Part shown: one piece after another, positions 13,273-23,632 of the stretch
Layout: each line of letters starts with the position of its first letter
How positions within the stretch are numbered: position 1 is the first letter of the stretch
IMG/VR virus record: IMGVR_UViG_3300009788_000064
Location: 1-41,268 of that record
Source of the DNA: a virus
DNA: 41,268 nucleotides
Strand: one strand, 5' to 3'
Notes under the pieces: model-generated
Seen by the model: only the letters and a program-made list of their open reading frames with translations
Databases searched by the model: none
What the model was told of the DNA's origin: nothing
Translations under genes and position numbers: made by a program

Positions 13273-14949
13273 TTAATCCTCCAGTATTTCGCCCTCTACT
13301 TCTATTGTATGTGTAAACTCACCCTCTACTTCTATTGTATGTGTGAACTCACCTGAAACTTCAACCTTTTCTCGTGCGCCTTTACCAAACAGCAGACCAG
13401 TAAATTTAATTACACCACCAAGCATTTTCTTGATTGCTCTTTTTATAGAACCAGAAAAAGTCAGTGTACCGCTAAAGAATTTTTTAGTTAGTTTCTTTAC
13501 AGAACCAGAACAAACTAAATTACCTTGCCTTATTATTTTAGTGTTCTTAATTACATTTCCTATGAAAGCAATATTTCCTACTCTTATTACTTTAGAACGC
13601 TTTAACAATCCACCACTAAAAGTGAAGGCACCTGCTAAACTCTTGTAAGTTACTGGGGAAGGTACCGGACCAATTGGTCCAGTCTCAGCTAATACAATAT
13701 CATCAATATAAATCCAATCTCCGGCATCAGGTACACTATTAAATGCTCTTTGCCCAATCCGAAGTAGGCTTATTGCATATGCAGAATAATTCATACCAGT
13801 AACTTCATAAGCTAAATCGCCATCAATCAAATAACGAACAACACCGTCCGCACCGCTTCCGGCAAAGAAATATATATCAATATAATGCCATGCATCAGCA
13901 GAAAAATTTGTTGCTGGTAATTGAAGACCATCGAACTGTGTTGACAAGGCCCATGATTCGGGATGAGTAGTTGCACCACAATAGAAACCTACTTGACTAA
14001 GATAGGTTGCTCCAGAAAGTGATTCGTAAGCAAAGAAAACTGTTGAAGCTGATTGCCTTGTAAAGGTTGAGGGAAACTTAATATAGATACGAGAATGAAG
14101 TATTGCTTTTGCAGTAAAAGCCTTGATCCCATAAGCTTGTTTATTTGATCCATCGCCAGTAAACTTGTAGCCAAAATTACCATGACATGCTGCCAGAGCA
14201 TCCAAAGTAAGAGTACATCCACCTTGCTGATAAAGAGAATCAAACTCCCAAGGAGTACCACCAGCATCTTCTCCATCTATTTCAATAGGAAACTCAGGAG
14301 TAGGATTAATACCAATTTGAAAATAAGCAGCACCATCTGATAAAGAACAAGTGACGCTGGCGGCTCCTGATGCTCCAGCAGTCGCTAAATCTCTACTTCC
14401 CCAACAAGCACTATTAAAACCTTGAGATTGCGGATTTTGGACTTCATCCTCTTCTACAAAAGGGCCGGCTACAGAGAAAGGGAAACCATCAGAACCATCA
14501 AAAGAAAGACCATACAAAATTAAACAATTATCTACATCTGTTATAATAGAAGGAATAACGTGTACGCTTTCACTAAATGTACTTGCGAAGTTACTAATGT
14601 TAATAGGATTATCTGGGTTTACACCGCTGATTCGCGCATAAAACATACACCACTGATCAGCAGATTCCGCGACTACCGTTTCACTTGCATCTTCTGTACC
14701 AGTCGCGATCCGATAAAATACACCGATGTGAGCATCTGACGAAAAATCACCTGACTCATCTATAAACTCCCATCCAGCTTTATTGTCCCAGAATTGTGGA
14801 ACAGCAGAGTCATCTTCATTCGCACAGATCAAGACTAATAAGTCACCTATCTCAACACCAGCAGGTTTATTACACGTTAAGTTAATAGACTGACCTGCGC
14901 CACCCTGATTTTTTTCAATGGTCTCAATAACAGGTATAGATGTAGGCAT
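13273..14949 (-). CDS. Distal tail/fibre-like protein with LamG-like domain and two C-terminal repeat arrays
   Basis: The 558-aa product has an N-terminal beta-rich region (residues 1-220), a concanavalin/LamG-like region (about 235-425, with VRYLIDGDLAYEVTG and DWIYIDDIVLAE), then about four copies of a G-x-(L/I)-x-F-x-G-x-(I/V)-K-x-x-x-K repeat (about 435-525). It ends in a short repeat, GEFTHTIEVE, about two and a half times. Such domains bind carbohydrate or form host-contact appendages. The ribosome site is weak (GAGGCG). The position after the lysis genes fits a receptor-binding accessory. Confidence 0.7.
   Translation of the reverse strand: MPTSIPVIETIEKNQGGAGQSINLTCNKPAGVEIGDLLVLICANEDDSAVPQFWDNKAGWEFIDESGDFSSDAHIGVFYRIATGTEDASETVVAESADQWCMFYARISGVNPDNPINISNFASTFSESVHVIPSIITDVDNCLILYGLSFDGSDGFPFSVAGPFVEEDEVQNPQSQGFNSACWGSRDLATAGASGAASVTCSLSDGAAYFQIGINPTPEFPIEIDGEDAGGTPWEFDSLYQQGGCTLTLDALAACHGNFGYKFTGDGSNKQAYGIKAFTAKAILHSRIYIKFPSTFTRQSASTVFFAYESLSGATYLSQVGFYCGATTHPESWALSTQFDGLQLPATNFSADAWHYIDIYFFAGSGADGVVRYLIDGDLAYEVTGMNYSAYAISLLRIGQRAFNSVPDAGDWIYIDDIVLAETGPIGPVPSPVTYKSLAGAFTFSGGLLKRSKVIRVGNIAFIGNVIKNTKIIRQGNLVCSGSVKKLTKKFFSGTLTFSGSIKRAIKKMLGGVIKFTGLLFGKGAREKVEVSGEFTHTIEVEGEFTHTIEVEGEILED
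13291..13350 (-). repeat. 30-bp tandem repeat (2 copies) encoding GEFTHTIEVE
   Basis: Bases 13291-13320 and 13321-13350 are two 30-bp units differing at two positions (first base and one A/G), within the 3' end of the 558-aa gene. The unit keeps the reading frame (10 codons), so copy number could vary without a frameshift. A diverged third copy (EKVEVSGEFTHT) precedes them. Confidence 0.9.
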
Positions 14950-15459: not shown

Positions 15460-15751
15460 TACTTGCTCCTCGTTTAAGATTAAATCTATTTTCAAACTCT
15501 TCGGCCTTGGGCCGAAAGTCTGCATGAAATCTGTCTAAAGACTCTTTACCTTCTGGACATACAATCAAGAGTCGATACTTCTGCTCATCAGCTAACAATA
15601 TAAAACCATCGGCTTCTCTATGGCCACAGCAACTCATGGCAGTCTTTACTCCACCAAGATTTAATGCTTGAACAATATCAGCAAGACATTCGTCAAGCAT
15701 TACATTTCGTTTATTAATTACAATAGGTTTTCTACTACCGTGAAGACACAT
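15437..15751 (-). CDS. Conserved CCGH-motif phage protein (104 aa)
   Basis: The core LNLGGVKTAMSCCGHREADGFILLADE resembles a small protein found in many phages with the pattern T-x-x-(S/C)-C-C-G-H-x-x-x-x-G-x-I-x-L-x-D. It probably binds metal through Cys-Cys and His, but its role is unknown. It overlaps the spanin-like gene by 17 nt, so it lies in the same transcript as the lysis genes. Confidence 0.75.
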   Translation of the reverse strand: MCLHGSRKPIVINKRNVMLDECLADIVQALNLGGVKTAMSCCGHREADGFILLADEQKYRLLIVCPEGKESLDRFHADFRPKAEEFENRFNLKRGASNEPNKTS

Positions 15752-16274
15752 CTTTTAATACCCATCCAGTAAAGCTGCCAATTAATAAAGCAAGCAAAAC
15801 AAATACTAAAGATTTAATCTTGCTCCGACGAAGTTCTCGCTCCATTACTTGAAGCGTCTTCTGCCAAGTCTCTTCGGAAGCCGCGTAAATCTCGCAGAGC
15901 GTTTTCAGCTTCACCTCTAATTGATCTATTATATTCAGAAGCTCGTCCACTCGACTCTTGTATCTTCGTGTTAGATTCCTCGAGACTTCTAACCTGGTCT
16001 TCCAATTGTTTAACTCCGTCAATAGTTTCCTGGTAGATAAGACCTGCTCTTGCGAGATCGTTTGCGAGTCCTTCAATTGTTTCTCGAGCTTCTTTGAGTA
16101 ACTTAGAATCTTCATCAGCCTCGATTCGGTGTTGTTCAGAAAGCTGTTTAGACTTTCGCTGAAGATCGGTGATGGTAATAGAAGCAGGACGATACACAAA
16201 GTAAAGCACAGCACCTGCACTGAGAATCGCGCCAACCAAGAATGTGATCGCGCACCATTTGAATATTTGCACAT
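15735..16274 (-). CDS. Spanin-like lysis protein: signal peptide, coiled coil, C-terminal TM (179 aa)
   Basis: The ATG at 16274 shares its A with the stop of the holin-like gene (TAATG) and has GGAGGAGG at 16285-16278. The product has a Sec-type signal region (VLCFTLCIVLLLLPSPIFSES, about residues 20-40), a long coiled coil (about 45-150) and a C-terminal membrane helix (LVFVLLALLIGSFTGWVL). This topology, exported and anchored at its C-terminus, resembles unimolecular spanins (T1 gp11), although no clear lipobox cysteine is seen. The first 460 nt are shared with another frame that also looks like a spanin. It would act in outer-membrane disruption at lysis. Confidence 0.72.
   Translation of the reverse strand: MCKYSNGARSHSWLARFSVQVLCFTLCIVLLLLPSPIFSESLNSFLNNTESRLMKILSYSKKLEKQLKDSQTISQEQVLSTRKLLTELNNWKTRLEVSRNLTRRYKSRVDELLNIIDQLEVKLKTLCEIYAASEETWQKTLQVMERELRRSKIKSLVFVLLALLIGSFTGWVLKDVSSR
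15814..16272 (-). CDS. Rz-like inner-membrane spanin candidate in an overlapping frame (152 aa)
   Basis: Lies wholly inside 15735-16274, in the +1 frame. The best start is GTG 16272, whose first base is the last base of the other gene's ATG (ATGTG); it uses the same GGAGGAGG with a 5-nt spacer. ATG 16293 is an alternative with a poor site. The product has an N-terminal membrane helix (CAITFLVGAILSAGAVLYFVY), then a ~110-residue charged coiled coil ending hydrophilic, the classic Rz (i-spanin) layout. Two such plausible proteins in one stretch argue for true dual coding. Confidence 0.62.
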   Translation of the reverse strand: MQIFKWCAITFLVGAILSAGAVLYFVYRPASITITDLQRKSKQLSEQHRIEADEDSKLLKEARETIEGLANDLARAGLIYQETIDGVKQLEDQVRSLEESNTKIQESSGRASEYNRSIRGEAENALRDLRGFRRDLAEDASSNGARTSSEQD

Positions 16275-16477
16275 TAGCCTCCTCCGTTTTCATACTTTTT
16301 CTGCAGCGTCTTTGTGGCAAGACCTACAGCAGTTAAAGTAGAGCCAGATACCACAGCTTCAGGCATTGCAATGATCACGCCAATAACTGCGACAATCGTG
16401 CCAGTGACATAGCACCCAAAGCTTAATAATCTGATCATGCTTTTATTACCTTTGTCGTCTTCAAAAAATCCCCTCAT
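16274..16477 (-). CDS. Holin-like small membrane protein (67 aa)
   Basis: Start ATG 16477 has AAGGAGT seven nt upstream. After a polar N-terminus (RGFFEDDKGNKS) come two hydrophobic stretches (LLSFGCYVTGTIVAVIGVIIA and VVSGSTLTAVGLA), then a basic tail. It lies between endolysin and spanin-like genes, where holins usually sit. The last codons encode the ribosome site used by the spanin-like genes. It could instead be an accessory membrane protein, since a second small TM protein lies upstream. Confidence 0.65.
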   Translation of the reverse strand: MRGFFEDDKGNKSMIRLLSFGCYVTGTIVAVIGVIIAMPEAVVSGSTLTAVGLATKTLQKKYENGGG

Positions 16478-16478
16478 T

Positions 16479-16976
16479 TTAATACTCCTTACCGCAAGCT
16501 TGAAAATGCATCCCATCAAAAGCTGGAAAGTTTATAAAACCACGTCTTAAGAACGCTTCTACTATTACCCAAGGCATTAATGATGGTTCATTATATGGCC
16601 CAAGACCTGGACACTGATCAACAGAGATTGCAAAAGCATGAGTAGACGGTTCTTTCTTTCCACGTTTAAATCTTGGATTGTATATGCCACCAAAAAAATC
16701 AAGGCCTTTTAATCGCATAACACGAAGACCATAGAACTCATGTATTTCTTCAAAGGCGTCTACCATCACAGCGCCAACTAATCTATGAGCGTGGAAAGCC
16801 CTGACCTCTTTATAGTCCCAGCTTTGTCTTAAAGGAAAAGAAAGGCGAAACACCTCAACATTTTCTTTAAACCAATTGGTATTTGTGACAAACTTTCCAC
16901 GTTCTACTTGGCCAGGAATGCCGTAGTACTTGACAATATCATCAATGCCATTAGGAACGTATCTTAATTTTAACAT
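16479..16976 (-). CDS. Endolysin, M15-type L,D/D,D-carboxypeptidase-like
   Basis: The 165-aa protein carries the zinc-peptidase set of the VanY/M15 family: STHAFAISVDQ (His113, Asp120) and DGMHFQ (His157). The usual form is S-x-H-x-x-G-x-A-x-D...H; here Phe-Ala replaces the common Gly step, a variant seen in phage endolysins. It would cut peptide cross-bridges of peptidoglycan. No signal peptide or wall-binding domain is present, so it needs a holin for release. Ribosome site AAGGAGTGAG precedes the ATG. Confidence 0.8.
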   Translation of the reverse strand: MLKLRYVPNGIDDIVKYYGIPGQVERGKFVTNTNWFKENVEVFRLSFPLRQSWDYKEVRAFHAHRLVGAVMVDAFEEIHEFYGLRVMRLKGLDFFGGIYNPRFKRGKKEPSTHAFAISVDQCPGLGPYNEPSLMPWVIVEAFLRRGFINFPAFDGMHFQACGKEY

Positions 16977-16986
16977 ATCTCACTCC

Positions 16987-17220
16987 TTATGTAAGATAAA
17001 CAAATAAACCAAGACCTAAGAAAATAAGACTAATTATACTAATTGTAAGAGCCAATTCTTTTCGAGTCACAAACGCCTTTTGTCCTTCTTCCAACTGTCG
17101 AACATCATCAACAACACCACCTCCTCCGTTTCCTAATACGCCTTTAATGTGTTCTACGTCACCAAAAGTTTTAACAAGAAGCTCACGGTCAGATAACTTT
17201 TCCATTTCTTTTTGTGTCAT
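16987..17220 (-). CDS. XhlA-like lysis accessory protein, C-terminal TM (77 aa)
   Basis: An amphipathic, partly coiled N-terminus with an odd Gly tract (GNGGGG) is followed by one membrane helix (LALTISIISLIFLGLGLFVYL) at the very end. The order helix-linker-helix-TM resembles haemolysin XhlA-type proteins beside endolysins. The start overlaps the stop of the tail gene as TAATG. It may be a holin partner or antiholin. Confidence 0.6.
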   Translation of the reverse strand: MTQKEMEKLSDRELLVKTFGDVEHIKGVLGNGGGGVVDDVRQLEEGQKAFVTRKELALTISIISLIFLGLGLFVYLT

Positions 17221-20200
17221 TATATAGCCTCTGGTCCTACCTTATTAATAATTACACAGCTACCTTCCATTAATCTTGCATATGATCCAGGCACTTCGCT
17301 GGCAAACCATAATTCCAAATTACCTATTGCAGATACAACAATCATACCTTCAATTGTAATACAAATATTGGCGTCTGCCGTTGTTACAGCCGTTAACCCA
17401 GTAAGATTAGGTGTTGTAGTACTTTCTAATCTTGTCACTTGCATTGCTTGAAGATTAACTGTACCACCTGAAACTTCATCGTCTGCTGTACCTACTGCAC
17501 CAGCAGCATTATTTGTAGGAAATATTAACTTTGCAAAGAAGGCTGTTTGAGTACCTGTAAAATTAATTCCAAATCTTGCACCAGTCGTTGTAAGTACAGT
17601 TTGAAGAATTAAACAAAACTTAAAATGATATCCACCTGGTGGAAGTCTCCGCCAAAGCTCCCATACCTTTTGTCCAGTCGTGAGTAAATTAGAAAATGTA
17701 TGTTTCAACATACCTTTAGGACTATCTAACAACCGAACTATACCATCTTCTCTTGCTTCTAAATATAGATCATTACGACTGTAGCCTACTGCACTGGCCC
17801 AAGTCACTTGTCGAATATGATGCTGAATTAAATAATCAATGTTGCAAAATCTTCGTACCGACATTGCTAACTCATCCATCCGCATACCTGCAACTAAAAG
17901 TTGAATACTACAATTTGCACCTGATGTAGCTCCCCATGATCCGCTTGGTTGCCAACTCATGACTCCACCATCTGTAATCAAATAAGCATAATTCGTATCT
18001 ACATTATAAGTAAAAGATATAGAGTGCCATGCATTTTCTGCCATGACTGCACTTTCCCGAAGCGTTGACGTACCATTCTTATAAACTTTTAATTGTGCTC
18101 TATCTGAAGAAACAATTCTTAATGCAAAACCATCTGTAGTATTGCCCATCGTGAGAATGTCTGAGTTTGTAGCATATCCAGTTGGAAGGAAAAACTTTAA
18201 ATCAGCAGTAACACTTTCTCCCGCGTCATATGGTCCACCAAAAAATCCAAACGTTAACATAGTACCAACAGTGATAGCAGCACCATCCCAACCAGAGCCA
18301 GTATAATTAACAGCTATTATAGTAAGTGAACCAATGCCATCTTCATCATCTACATTATTTTGAAACTTAAAGAAATAAAACGATTCGTCGGGAAGTGGAT
18401 CAAGCAGAGGCGAAGTAGTTATATCTCCTAACACTCCCCGACATGATAAAAAGGGACGAAAGTTACTATTGCCATCAACGCCACCAAAAGTAATCTGACG
18501 CTCAGTTGACCAATTCCCATTTGTAAAAATCTGAAATAATACTTCATCACCATCAAGACGTTGCCTCCTATCTCCTTCGTCTGGACTATCCGGCGTACCT
18601 GTTCCACTAAAACCAATAGTCAAAGCAAAAGAAACATTTACAAACTGCGCCTGTAACGCTGCTACAGCAATTTTTTCAGCGGTAACTGCAAGAGCATGAA
18701 GTTTATCTGTCTCAACTGCACCTGCCGAAATCTTTGCAGCCGTGACCGCAAGAGCATGAAGCTTTGCAGTTTCAACAGCACCTGCAGCTATTTTACCAGC
18801 TACTACTGCAAGAGCAAAAAGTTTATCAGTAACTACTGCACCTGCTTTAATCTTAGCTGCAACTACAGCGTCTGCTTTTATTTTATTTTCAGTGACAGCA
18901 TCAACAGCAATCTTAGCTTCTTCTACAGCAGCATTAATTAATTTTGCAGTAGTTATAGCATCTGTTTTAATGTACTTGCTCTCAATTAAGTTTATTGTCG
19001 CATCAACGGTGTCTGACCAATCACCTTCATCCGGTGCTAATGAGACTACACGAACACGATAAAACAATTGAATTGGTACAGGATTATCCGGATCAGCAGC
19101 AGGAATATTTTGATGTGTCATATACTCATCAAGCACTGAAGTGACTTGTCCTTCAACGCCTTTCCAATCTACACCATCATTACGCAATTTATACCAATTA
19201 GTTTCATTACTTGAAACCTGTATTTCATAATGACTGAAATTGGTAAGATTATGTTGACGCTCCCAACTTAAAGTAATTCCATTAAAACCTATAGCATAGC
19301 AATTGGAAACTACTATCTTTGCAGCTACAGTGGTACCACCTCCACCAATATAACCTACTTGATCTTCTACTTTGGTTACATAACGTTCTTCTGCATCACG
19401 AATGGTTGTAACGATTGGCGGAGAAGTAATATCATTTTGTTCTTCCATTGACCCCAAAGTATAAGCATCTACGCCTTCGCATCGAATACGCTTATCTCCT
19501 TGTTCGTTCTCTATAATTTCAACAACTCGAAGACTTGTTGTTATATCTAAAACACCCTCATAAAAGTCAAGATACTCACCAACTACATAAGCTTCTCCAG
19601 TTGGAAAAGAGTATGTAAAATCAGCAAAGTCATACCACTTTACTAAACCATTACAAAGTCGATCAGAGTCTGCCTTACTTGTTATGTATCGAGCTTCTAT
19701 CTCCCTAATCTTTTCTGTGCTGGGCACAAGATATTGTACTGATCTATTAATTATATTCCTATCAATTACTACAGGGTCGCCATTAATATCAAACCGAGTT
19801 ATTGACCCACCTGCTGGTGAAGTAAACTTTACAAGGGCTCGTTTATACTTAGGCGTCCACGTGTTTAAAGTAACACTTGTCTTTGCCCAATTAAGATAAG
19901 CATTTAAAACTATGATAAGATCATAGTCAGTAAGCTGATACTTTGAGTGTACATCCAAAGTATCAGCACCTACCGGATACCAGTCGCCTGCTCCAAGTGT
20001 AATGTTACATTTATTTGTAGAGTCACCATCTGTAGTGTCTGAGAAAACAACTCTGTCAGTGAGCGTTAAATGAGGATGCCATGTGACTCGCACACCGCTA
20101 TACTTTGTCTCAACCTTTTGTACCTTTAAATCATGATAAATCTTTGAATCATCTACAACTGTTTGAGCAGGTAATGAGATTGGAAATAAATCCTGTAATT

Positions 20201-20762
20201 CAAATATCCCACTGCCCTTACAATCATAAACATAGCCAAACTCAAATAAGAGTGCAGTAATTTCATCAAGATAAACAGCTTTGTCTTCGCGTTCAATTAC
20301 GAAGTAGTCTATGACCTTATCAATAAGGATAAAATCCAATTCACCGTCAGATATTCCAGCTTCATAAAAAAGCTGGTGCATAATGCTTGAACCTTTATTA
20401 GCAGGGTCGCTCACCTTATAGTCTGCATATGCAAAGCTCTGATCAATTTGCTTTTGTAGTAAGATACCTTTATCATAGCCCTCAACGTTAAAGACTTTTA
20501 AACTTGCACCAACAGTATTTTCAAACGTCGGACGTATAAGGCCAACGAACCATAAAACATCATCCTTTTTTATTTGCAGAGGCAAATCAACGTTACTCGT
20601 GTTAAACTTATTTGCGGTTGTCTTATCTCTGACTGTAAATCGACAAGTATTTATAGTTGGCCCTAAACCATTATGTAAACATTGAGTCCGCTCAATATCA
20701 CCACAGTGCTGAGTAATGTGTTCAAAGCCTGTACCAAAGTCAACCTCAATTGTAAAGCCCAT
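17220..20762 (-). CDS. Tail-tip/central fibre protein (1180 aa)
   Basis: Residues 1-400 resemble the hub and baseplate proteins that follow the tape measure in siphophages. About 490-590 is a fibronectin type III-like domain (ITLSWERQHNLTNFSHYEIQ). About 600-700 is a run of ~10-residue repeats (AVTAAKISAGAVETDKLHAL). Later parts contain a LamG-like beta-sandwich (NAWHSISFTYNVDTNYAYLI) and a C-terminal beta domain. The combination suits a trimeric tail-tip protein with host-binding end. Start at ATG 20762 in TGATG with the tape measure stop; a GTG one codon upstream is possible. No strong ribosome site, so coupling is likely. Confidence 0.82.
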   Translation of the reverse strand: MGFTIEVDFGTGFEHITQHCGDIERTQCLHNGLGPTINTCRFTVRDKTTANKFNTSNVDLPLQIKKDDVLWFVGLIRPTFENTVGASLKVFNVEGYDKGILLQKQIDQSFAYADYKVSDPANKGSSIMHQLFYEAGISDGELDFILIDKVIDYFVIEREDKAVYLDEITALLFEFGYVYDCKGSGIFELQDLFPISLPAQTVVDDSKIYHDLKVQKVETKYSGVRVTWHPHLTLTDRVVFSDTTDGDSTNKCNITLGAGDWYPVGADTLDVHSKYQLTDYDLIIVLNAYLNWAKTSVTLNTWTPKYKRALVKFTSPAGGSITRFDINGDPVVIDRNIINRSVQYLVPSTEKIREIEARYITSKADSDRLCNGLVKWYDFADFTYSFPTGEAYVVGEYLDFYEGVLDITTSLRVVEIIENEQGDKRIRCEGVDAYTLGSMEEQNDITSPPIVTTIRDAEERYVTKVEDQVGYIGGGGTTVAAKIVVSNCYAIGFNGITLSWERQHNLTNFSHYEIQVSSNETNWYKLRNDGVDWKGVEGQVTSVLDEYMTHQNIPAADPDNPVPIQLFYRVRVVSLAPDEGDWSDTVDATINLIESKYIKTDAITTAKLINAAVEEAKIAVDAVTENKIKADAVVAAKIKAGAVVTDKLFALAVVAGKIAAGAVETAKLHALAVTAAKISAGAVETDKLHALAVTAEKIAVAALQAQFVNVSFALTIGFSGTGTPDSPDEGDRRQRLDGDEVLFQIFTNGNWSTERQITFGGVDGNSNFRPFLSCRGVLGDITTSPLLDPLPDESFYFFKFQNNVDDEDGIGSLTIIAVNYTGSGWDGAAITVGTMLTFGFFGGPYDAGESVTADLKFFLPTGYATNSDILTMGNTTDGFALRIVSSDRAQLKVYKNGTSTLRESAVMAENAWHSISFTYNVDTNYAYLITDGGVMSWQPSGSWGATSGANCSIQLLVAGMRMDELAMSVRRFCNIDYLIQHHIRQVTWASAVGYSRNDLYLEAREDGIVRLLDSPKGMLKHTFSNLLTTGQKVWELWRRLPPGGYHFKFCLILQTVLTTTGARFGINFTGTQTAFFAKLIFPTNNAAGAVGTADDEVSGGTVNLQAMQVTRLESTTTPNLTGLTAVTTADANICITIEGMIVVSAIGNLELWFASEVPGSYARLMEGSCVIINKVGPEAI
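18655..18960 (-). repeat. About ten ~30-bp repeats coding for A-K-(L/I)-x-A-x-A-V-x-T/A units
   Basis: Within the tail-tip gene the units KIKADAVVAA, KIKAGAVVTD, KLFALAVVAG, KIAAGAVETA, KLHALAVTAA, KISAGAVETD and KLHALAVTAE follow each other with a 10-residue period. Alternating units end in ALAV or AGAV. At DNA level the copies differ, so they are old duplications. Such repeats are common in phage tail fibres and are thought to form an extended trimeric shaft. Confidence 0.9.
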
Positions 20763-23632
20763 CACATTCCCAAGATGGCAAGAGATTCAAACTCTTGACG
20801 TAGTAGGATAGCAAACTCTCGCAGCGTATTGCCTGCTATTGTATTATCGTGAACGTCAATATTTACTTCGATTGGTCGAGCTTGTTCGTAAGTAGCACCT
20901 ACGCCTGCTGTTCCTGCAGCACCTCCAGCACCTCCAGCACCTCCAGCACCAGTAGGTGGAACATAAGGTTCTATAGTTAAACCTGTTGATACTCTATTAA
21001 GCGCATCTTTTAATGTGCCACCCCAGTCAATCCTTTTTATCTTTCTCCACTGGAATGTAACTGCATACCATATAACTTTGCCGAATGCTACTATCTTAGT
21101 TAACAGCCAACCTATTACAGCGCCAACCTTTCCAACTATAGTAGCAAATATTACTAAGGGCTTTTCCAAGAGTGCAAATATCTGTGCAACTATATCTAAG
21201 ATCGGTGCAAAAGCATTTAAGATTGGAACAAGAGCTGCCAGCAGCGGAGAAAGCATAGCTCCAATAATATGTACGACTATGCCAATCACGTCAGCTATTG
21301 CTTTCCAAAAAGGCAATGTCTCTTGAATTAATGCACCCAACATCTGGAATATTTGTATAAAGATCGGCATAACATTAGTGAGCAACTGTATAAAAATATC
21401 TATGAGTGGGGACAGTGCATTTAATAATGGACCAACGGCCTGACTGAGTATCTTAGATAATGATTCGTTAATCTTTTCAATAAAGTTTTTGAATTCATCT
21501 GTTGACGTAAACAGACTTAATAAATGTTGACCCAAAGACTGAGCAGCACTACCAATAGTTTGAAGAGCACGAATACCAATTTCAACGGCAAAGTGAGCAA
21601 CTGCTTCAGTGGCTTTCTCAAGAGCTCTGCGAAACTTTTGAGGAATTAATTCAAAGCGAGCCATTCCAGTTCCACCACCTCCAATGGCTGGTGCTGCGGC
21701 TGGAGTTGGCCCTGCTCTTCCACCACCACTTAGTCGATTAAGAATCTCCTGTATTCTGGCTTCAAGCTCAGCTAAGCCTGCTGTACCAAAAGCTCCTGCA
21801 CCAAAAAGTCCTTTAATTGTTCCGGACATATTACCTACAAGGCTCTTGATCTTTGTAAACATTTCAATAGCTTTTTCTTTTGCTGCATCAAAGGCGTCTG
21901 TGAAAACTACTGCTATTTCTTGACCACCTTCTTTTAATAAAGCAGTACCAGTCGCTATAGATTCTTGAAGCTGACGCTTTCCTTCTGCAATTAGTTTATC
22001 ACCAAAACCTCTTAGTCGCTCAAGGTCTCGTTCTAACTGTCGAATTGGAACAAGCGGCTTTCCTTCTCCACCCAATAACTCTACTATAAAGTTTCTTGCT
22101 TTCATGTAAACATTAGAAACTTTTGCCCAAGTCAATTTAAGCCAAGTCAGTATTGTTTCAAACTTGTCAATCAGCCATCCCTTAACCTGTTTATAGATGC
22201 CTACTACGACACCAACAATAATTGTTTTGATTCCAACCCAAATCTTTTGAAGGCCTTTACCAAGTTTCAACGTAGCTGCTTTAATCTTTTCCCAGTTCTT
22301 AACAATTATAACGACTAAGCCAATAGCCGCTGCTGCAATCAGTACGTATGGATTAGCAAGTAAACGTATGACTTGACCTAATGTGCCAAACACTTTAATC
22401 AAGCCACCTACCATCATTATTGCCGGACCCAAAGCCAACGCGGCAAGCGCTACGTTTACTGCGAAACGTTTCGTCTCAGGCGCCAAGTTAGAAAAGCGAT
22501 CAGCAAGACCAGCTATAAAGTTTGAAAACTTTTCAATCATTGGAATAATTATAGGTCCCAACACGTCGCCTATCATAATAAGCGACACTCTTAATCTTTG
22601 AACAATTCGAGCAAATCGTTGTGCGATTGTTTTGCTGGCCTCTTCAAACGCTGTTTGACCAGAGCCTACTGCATTTGCAAGAGACTGAAAAATACCTGCA
22701 GTATTTTCTGCCTCTCCACCAAGAAGACCAAGTGCACCAATTACTGCTCGAGACTCTGGAAGTATTTTGATTAAAGCTGCTTCATTTCTACCTAAGGCAT
22801 CATACAAGCGATTAAGAGCAACATAAAGCCCTTCTTCTCTAATTGTTTTCCGTAATCCCTCAGCAGACATACCTACAGCCGCAAGAGCGTCAGTTGCCTC
22901 TTTAGCCGGCTTAAGTAATGAAACCATAATAGCTCGAAAAGAAGTCATGGCTTCATCAGCAGTAAAATTAATACGAGTTAATGTAGCCATTATAGCACCA
23001 ACTTGATCAAAGGACACACCCATTTGAGCGGCTATAGGTATTACTCGACCAATCGAAGTTGCTATTGAATCAGCCGAAGCTTTTCCTTCGCGCACTGTAG
23101 CAGTTAAAATATCCACGGCTTCTGCTGCATTAATATTTGCTGAACCATAAGCATTCATAACACCTGTCACAGCATCTGCAACAACCTTCGCAGAGCCTAA
23201 CCCAGCAACAGCGGCTTTTGTCGAAGCTACTAAAGTGTCCATGGCTTCAGCTCCGCGAAGACCTGCAGAAGTAACAAAGAACATAGCCTCAGCTAATTCT
23301 TTTGGGGACTTTCCAAGCAGCGGTGCCAAATCCAATAAGTCCTTTCTCCAAAGGTCAACTTGTTTTCTTGACACGCCTACTAAGCCTACAATCTGCGACA
23401 GAGCTTTATCGAAGTCTGCAGACATTTTAACTGCTGCCGCTCCAAATGCAGCTAAAGGAAGTGTAAGCGACATAGAAAGACTCTTACCAAACCTTGTAAG
23501 ATTTTGTCCTACTCGCTTAAATGTCTTGTCAAGCGCTATGGCTCTTTTATGTGCAGTTTTAAGACCTCTATCAAACTTCACGCCATCAGTGCGAAGCTCT
23601 AATACTGCCTCACCTAATTTTTCGCCTGGCAT
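20762..23632 (-). CDS. Tail tape measure protein (TP901 family)
   Basis: The 956-aa product sets tail length and enters the cell with the DNA. Residues ~70-260 match the TP901 tape-measure core (SADFDKALSQIVGLVGVSRK, FFVTSAGLRGAEAMDTL, ATSIGRVIPIAAQMGVSFDQ, ATLTRINFTADEAMTSFRA). Hydrophobic segments follow at ~390-450 and ~790-860, as usual in such proteins. A Gly/Ala run (GAGGAGGAAGTAG), coded by 9-bp repeats, lies near residue 905. The start ATG 23632 lacks a strong site and sits inside the 3' end of the chaperone extension (19-nt overlap). Confidence 0.95.
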   Translation of the reverse strand: MPGEKLGEAVLELRTDGVKFDRGLKTAHKRAIALDKTFKRVGQNLTRFGKSLSMSLTLPLAAFGAAAVKMSADFDKALSQIVGLVGVSRKQVDLWRKDLLDLAPLLGKSPKELAEAMFFVTSAGLRGAEAMDTLVASTKAAVAGLGSAKVVADAVTGVMNAYGSANINAAEAVDILTATVREGKASADSIATSIGRVIPIAAQMGVSFDQVGAIMATLTRINFTADEAMTSFRAIMVSLLKPAKEATDALAAVGMSAEGLRKTIREEGLYVALNRLYDALGRNEAALIKILPESRAVIGALGLLGGEAENTAGIFQSLANAVGSGQTAFEEASKTIAQRFARIVQRLRVSLIMIGDVLGPIIIPMIEKFSNFIAGLADRFSNLAPETKRFAVNVALAALALGPAIMMVGGLIKVFGTLGQVIRLLANPYVLIAAAAIGLVVIIVKNWEKIKAATLKLGKGLQKIWVGIKTIIVGVVVGIYKQVKGWLIDKFETILTWLKLTWAKVSNVYMKARNFIVELLGGEGKPLVPIRQLERDLERLRGFGDKLIAEGKRQLQESIATGTALLKEGGQEIAVVFTDAFDAAKEKAIEMFTKIKSLVGNMSGTIKGLFGAGAFGTAGLAELEARIQEILNRLSGGGRAGPTPAAAPAIGGGGTGMARFELIPQKFRRALEKATEAVAHFAVEIGIRALQTIGSAAQSLGQHLLSLFTSTDEFKNFIEKINESLSKILSQAVGPLLNALSPLIDIFIQLLTNVMPIFIQIFQMLGALIQETLPFWKAIADVIGIVVHIIGAMLSPLLAALVPILNAFAPILDIVAQIFALLEKPLVIFATIVGKVGAVIGWLLTKIVAFGKVIWYAVTFQWRKIKRIDWGGTLKDALNRVSTGLTIEPYVPPTGAGGAGGAGGAAGTAGVGATYEQARPIEVNIDVHDNTIAGNTLREFAILLRQEFESLAILGM

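Follow-up and report, generated by a model that had tools for sequence, protein, structure and literature searches.

Twin-start genes in a phage lysis cassette: a probable overprinted pair behind one ribosome site, with two opposite inner-membrane rods as candidates for the spanin step

When two long open reading frames occupy the same stretch of phage DNA and begin two bases apart, a double question arises: are both of them genes and, if so, what could their products do together? The locus that raises it lies in a DNA stretch of 41,268 nucleotides, hereafter the window, an IMG/VR virus record (IMGVR_UViG_3300009788_000064) of a siphovirus-like phage with HK97-type head genes, a tape measure and a tail protein. 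Frame A (15735..16274, minus strand; 179 aa, ATG start) is predicted to encode a signal peptide, a long helix and a C-terminal transmembrane segment (TM), with no lipobox; frame B (15814..16272, minus strand; 152 aa, GTG start) is predicted to encode an N-terminal TM and a long helix, in the manner of an i-spanin.

The twin start and its cassette

An earlier sequence-only reading had described both frames behind a single ribosome site, with some 460 bp coding twice, and re-reading showed this to be exact, the overlap being 456 nt. The ribosome site (SD) GGAGGAGG (16278..16285, minus strand) is followed by CTA and then by ATGTG, so that the start codons of A (16274) and B (16272) are two bases apart, with A in the +1 frame of B. 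The A-only tail past the stop of B (15735..15813, minus strand), as read directly, corresponds to the C-terminal TM of A. The same SD also encodes the C-terminal codons (ENGGG) of the 67-aa holin-like gene directly upstream (16274..16477, minus strand), whose stop codon TAA (16276-16274) overlaps the ATG of A as TAATG; the coupling to the holin noted in the earlier reading is supported.

Other starts were considered for both frames. An in-frame ATG of B at 16291..16293 (minus strand) has no good SD and is the less likely start; in one relative, G037, which has ATGTG as in the window, a stop lies 12 nt before the GTG, so that B must begin there at GTG, and for this reason GTG 16272 is preferred. 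As to A, an in-frame stop lies 18 nt upstream of ATG 16274 with no other in-frame start there, and starts further downstream (ATG 16115 or 15845) were ruled out by their weak SDs and by the selected signal peptide at 16274 (see below).

On the minus strand the cassette runs from a 77-aa gene of XhlA-like layout with a C-terminal TM (16987..17220) through an M15-type endolysin (16479..16976; 165 aa) and the holin-like gene to A/B. The endolysin matches an endolysin PHROG with an E-value of 2.5e-13, and its relatives reach the Pfam Peptidase_M15_4 cut-off. Proteins recognisably related to the 77-aa protein occur in two pair-bearing relatives; its motif SDRELLVKTFGDVEHIKGVLGNGGG recurs in L183 and L155, and no Pfam family was found for the L155 version. 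Elsewhere in the window, positions 13273-14949 encode a 558-aa structural-like protein with near-perfect C-terminal repeats (EVEGEFTHTIEVEGEFTHTIEVEGE).

Are both frames genes?

The simplest doubt is that only B is a gene, A being a frame left open by chance, with hydrophobic ends that follow from the composition of B. Several observations are in line with it. The GC content of B at the three codon positions (0.562/0.418/0.353) is typical of the phage (0.54/0.41/0.33 for minus-strand genes), so that B looks like a normal coding frame and A like its shifted image; frames shifted against each other tend to resemble one another in hydropathy; and bare twin-start overlaps are not rare, 97 being found among the 12,750 ORFs of at least 100 codons in the loci examined. 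Codon preference, which by itself favours B only, was not taken to disprove A, since a +1 frame necessarily mirrors B in shifted form. Equally, bare twin-start counts were discarded as evidence by themselves, and what decides the matter is that ten relatives carry such a pair at the corresponding position.

Within the window, the openness of A already exceeds expectation. With the B protein fixed and codons drawn by genome usage, about seven stops are expected in frame A and none is seen (P(none) = 1.5e-4); permuting the codons of B itself gives P = 0.002 for a stop-free frame A. In the reverse test, with A fixed, about 16 stops are expected in B, so that B too is much more open than predicted. 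Among 6,428 minus-strand codons, off-frame runs that stay open by chance reach 101 codons at most; A has 179.

The relatives proved hard to reach. A and B gave no matches when phages were searched directly by tblastn, pattern scans of viral contigs for A/B yielded nothing, the endolysin alone as a query brought up no relatives with the pair, and a protein search for A/B in 28 contigs related by their capsids found none. The productive anchor was the tail protein beside the cassette (17220..20765, minus strand; 1181 aa). Capsid relatives led to contig IMGVR_UViG_3300028837_001110, whose tail protein is 49% identical to that of the window; shortly after its tail gene and a small gene with a C-terminal TM, a 135-aa frame with an N-terminal TM and a coil is paired with a 156-aa frame with a signal peptide, a coil and a C-terminal TM, their ATGs lying 4 nt apart (AAGGAGGAATGAATGAATGAAA). 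At an earlier stage, scanning 2.1 Mb for the strict architecture had yielded only the window and G005. The relatives were gathered from IMG/VR by profile scans with the tail protein and the endolysin and by a mechanical pair scan, which makes eleven pairs in all: the window, G005, G029, G030, G031, G036, G037, G039, L182/L183, L185 and L188. All pair-bearing relatives are IMG/VR contigs; two scans of genome contigs were empty. The aligned identity of the relatives to the proteins of the window is mostly at or below 25%.

The pair is present in all eight members with the tail gene that reach the cassette (the window and seven relatives); the contigs of the remaining tail relatives stop within or soon after that gene. 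The pair scan demanded hydrophobic N-termini, a selection bias by which no cassette-reaching tail relative was lost. An endolysin relative, L186, has no pair after its holin, where a terminator-like stretch is found. In L008 and L149, two fragments from other metagenomes, the capsid and tail proteins show 100% identity to those of the window; neither fragment reaches the lysis region.

Across the eleven pairs the layout is strikingly regular. Frame A is without exception +1 relative to B. The start offsets are -2 (twice), +4 (five times), +7 (three times) and +10 (once), so that 2-10 nt separate the two starts; both follow one SD-like site, a weak one in G039, and 98-100% of B lies within the overlap. 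A starts with ATG in ten pairs and with TTG in one, the stop of B falls at or just before the C-terminal TM of A in most members, and the holin stop overlaps the start of A or B in most as well. In several relatives the SD is likewise written into the last codons of the holin, giving N-G-G-G-like C-termini. The pair stays beside the endolysin and holin genes even though the type of endolysin differs (M15, Amidase_2 and some with no assigned type). A frameshift at the end of the holin (79 vs 70 aa) distinguishes L182 from L183, which represent the same cassette; it reflects either natural variation or a fault in the assembly.

The earlier reading had named homologues with one frame full of stops as the finding that would speak against it. 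Given the B proteins of the eleven diverged pairs, 80.5 stops are expected in frame A under genome usage, or 29.3 when the codons of each B are permuted, and none was observed; the claim of two genes in one stretch of DNA is upheld by ten diverged relatives that keep the pair in the same +1 relation. Moreover, the second codon position of A is the third position of B, so that synonymous choices in B write the hydropathy of A. The N-terminus of A is more hydrophobic than in synonymous permutations of B (Stouffer z 5.1; p 0.01 for the window), and the 3.5-residue (heptad) periodicity of A also exceeds that of the permutations (Stouffer z 3.5).

The A proteins form a recoverable family: with leave-one-out HMMs run against 9,524 ORFs, the held-out A ranked first behind the ten training sequences for nine of the eleven (E 2e-4 to 7e-12); for B, the held-out protein took this rank in five of eleven. 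Coiled coils yield weak, unspecific family matches. The A and B of the window itself, too diverged, were not recovered by these profiles (E 3.2 and 3.9), and the membership of the window pair therefore rests on synteny, layout, the twin start and codon statistics. Together with the C-terminal TM of A, which mostly lies past the stop of B, these data refute, at the level of the family, the view of A as a chance frame, which we consider very improbable.

A different doubt is that A might be made from B by a +1 ribosomal frameshift, yielding a fusion with TMs at both ends, as the invariable +1 relation could suggest. Against this, each A has its own start codon beside that of B, in 10/11 pairs an in-frame stop lies at most 18 nt upstream, so that the N-terminus of A must lie there, and the selected signal peptide sits at that very start; on these grounds the fusion was rejected as scarcely credible. 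It appears, then, that dual coding from twin starts is almost certainly real, and that both frames are kept open under selection across diverged relatives is established as well as sequence alone allows.

What the pair may do

The complementary membrane topologies proposed earlier are supported as predictions, the signal peptides being judged from hydropathy and model only. The AlphaFold model of A (mean pLDDT 85.9) has helices at residues 13-32 (the signal) and 36-178, the second running through the C-terminal TM, and that of B (mean pLDDT 89.1) has helices at 2-26 (the TM) and 31-151; the B layout of an N-terminal TM and a long helix is also found in the relatives. By simple arithmetic, the non-membrane helices of about 110-120 residues would be roughly 170-180 Å long, which is about the width of a periplasm.

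Is this, as was suggested, a spanin pair? The suggestion is partly supported. B has the predicted features of an i-spanin, an N-terminal TM and a periplasmic, often coiled-coil domain, and the B proteins of relatives match the Rz-like spanin PHROGs phrog_739, phrog_89 and phrog_2466 (best E 6e-6); the matches of the window B are weak (E 0.09 and worse). The placement, too, is that of spanin genes, which lie in the lysis cassette as separated, overlapped or embedded genes, with an overlap far more extreme than described. A matched no specific family. O-spanins are outer-membrane lipoproteins with a lipobox, and u-spanins combine a lipobox with a C-terminal TM in one protein; A has the TM, and the lipobox is absent in ten of the eleven A proteins, that of L182 having AGWC. 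Most A proteins have no cysteine at any possible lipidation site, and a pattern search of all six frames of the window found no lipobox ORF as a lipoprotein candidate. A as an o-spanin or u-spanin was accordingly rejected, a classical i-/o-spanin pair is unlikely, and, because A falls outside the definition of an outer-membrane lipoprotein, the pair is not filed as a two-component spanin or a u-spanin.

It could still be that B is an i-spanin whose lipoprotein partner, encoded by phage or host, went unrecognised, and that A plays an accessory part or is a u-spanin anchored in a non-canonical way. A does have the u-spanin order of an N-terminal export signal and a C-terminal TM; besides the AGWC of L182, an A-like protein of the distant phage ctLpZ231, in a pair with a short overlap, has an LMSC-like box, and unusual lipoboxes such as AWAC exist (PMC6139136). 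This reading is nevertheless quite improbable in view of the missing cysteines and the lack of a lipobox ORF by pattern in the window; in addition, the u-spanins of the T1 family are predicted to be beta-rich (PMC6139136), whereas A is helical in the model.

Alternatively, both genes might be real and serve some other function, such as holin/endolysin regulation, a membrane tether or an exclusion factor. The absence from A of the lipid anchor that defines spanins, the lack of an outer-membrane component in the window and a functional link consisting mainly of the position in the cassette all speak in its favour. However, several B relatives match Rz-like spanins, the length of the rods fits a periplasm, and the place after endolysin and holin is the usual one of Rz/Rz1. 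We regard such a function as rather unlikely.

The reading that we prefer is an overprinted lysis-cassette pair behind one ribosome site, whose products would form two opposite inner-membrane rods performing the spanin step; it is probably the best explanation of the sequence data. Ribosomes leaving the holin gene, or binding GGAGGAGG afresh, would start at ATG 16274 or GTG 16272, so that the same 456 nt would yield two long-helix proteins of similar length and opposite topology. The N-terminus of B would hold it in the inner membrane (N-in, C-out); A, once its presumably cleavable signal peptide has directed its export, would be held there by its C-terminus (N-out, C-in). After the action of the endolysin, helical rods of about 170-180 Å, rooted in the inner membrane and formed by A and B, would disrupt the outer membrane, a spanin-like step with no outer-membrane lipoprotein, assuming a diderm host envelope. 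A fixed A:B ratio set by the shared ribosome site is plausible. That the pair has a role in lysis is quite likely; the spanin-like role in the form just outlined, which draws on the cassette position, the resemblance of B to Rz-like spanins and the rod-like build, is favoured by a modest degree of confidence. Known spanins need an outer-membrane anchor, which counts against A, as it has none.

Comparison with known lysis systems and overlapping genes

The Rz/Rz1 pair is the textbook case of a nested lysis gene. As in the embedded spanins of lambda, two lysis proteins are encoded here in one stretch of DNA, the second in the +1 frame; the cassette position is similar, and lambda Rz is a type II inner-membrane coiled-coil protein, as B is predicted to be. 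However, genes of the Rz1 type have their start within the i-spanin gene, and for about 70% of the embedded ones it lies at 0.4-0.5 of the length of that gene (PMC6139136), whereas the starts of A and B are only 2-10 nt apart and nearly all of B is overlapped. Products of the Rz1 type are short lipoproteins; A is as long as B, predicted to be non-lipidated, and has a C-terminal TM. The pair thus goes beyond Rz/Rz1 in that nearly the whole of both proteins is written in one stretch of DNA, with adjacent starts, and is kept in strongly diverged phages.

In overlapped spanins of the P2 LysB/LysC type, the second gene runs past the end of the first, as A runs past B, but the two genes share only part of their length, and the second encodes an outer-membrane lipoprotein. 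U-spanins (T1 gp11) resemble A in combining an N-terminal export signal with a C-terminal TM; unlike A, which is co-encoded with B, they carry a lipobox and work alone. For about 13% of genomes, the 2018 survey by Kongari et al. reported no spanin; as a possible component that its criteria ignored, it pointed to a type I inner-membrane protein with a C-terminal TM (PMC6139136). This is exactly the predicted topology of A, and the A/B type is a candidate for such spanin-less phages. A gene caller that does not allow large overlaps would discard either A or B, so that the class has probably been overlooked.

Looser arrangements were also seen. At positions 6754-7264 of L190, a B/A-like pair overlaps partially; its A frame, again +1, has an SD to itself and starts about 130 nt into B. 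In L002 (MW202444, ctLpZ231), whose capsid protein is 47% identical to that of the window, an unannotated coiled-coil ORF (964-1284) overlaps by 62 nt an ORF (1223-1666) that is in +1 and has a signal with an LMSC box, a coil and a C-terminal TM, possibly a u-spanin-like protein or a looser version of the pair. Judged by layout, these two cases could be evolutionary intermediates and hint that the twin-start form may have arisen from genes that overlapped only in part.

No description of a twin-start lysis arrangement was found in the spanin literature covered, which was limited to open-access papers, and the pair appears to be a design not described before for the lysis step that breaks the envelope. 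We would only tentatively speak of a third class of outer-membrane disruption, with type II B rods and type I A rods, no lipoprotein, and one almost fully dual-coding gene behind a single ribosome site; if there is such a class, the overlap would tie together the lengths and the supply of both partners. Twin-start overlapping genes are known from eukaryotic viruses, for example influenza B NB/NA or tymovirus p69/p206, in which, as in A/B, the starts lie a few bases apart in different frames. There, however, scanning ribosomes make unrelated proteins, whereas in the phage pair one bacterial SD serves both starts.
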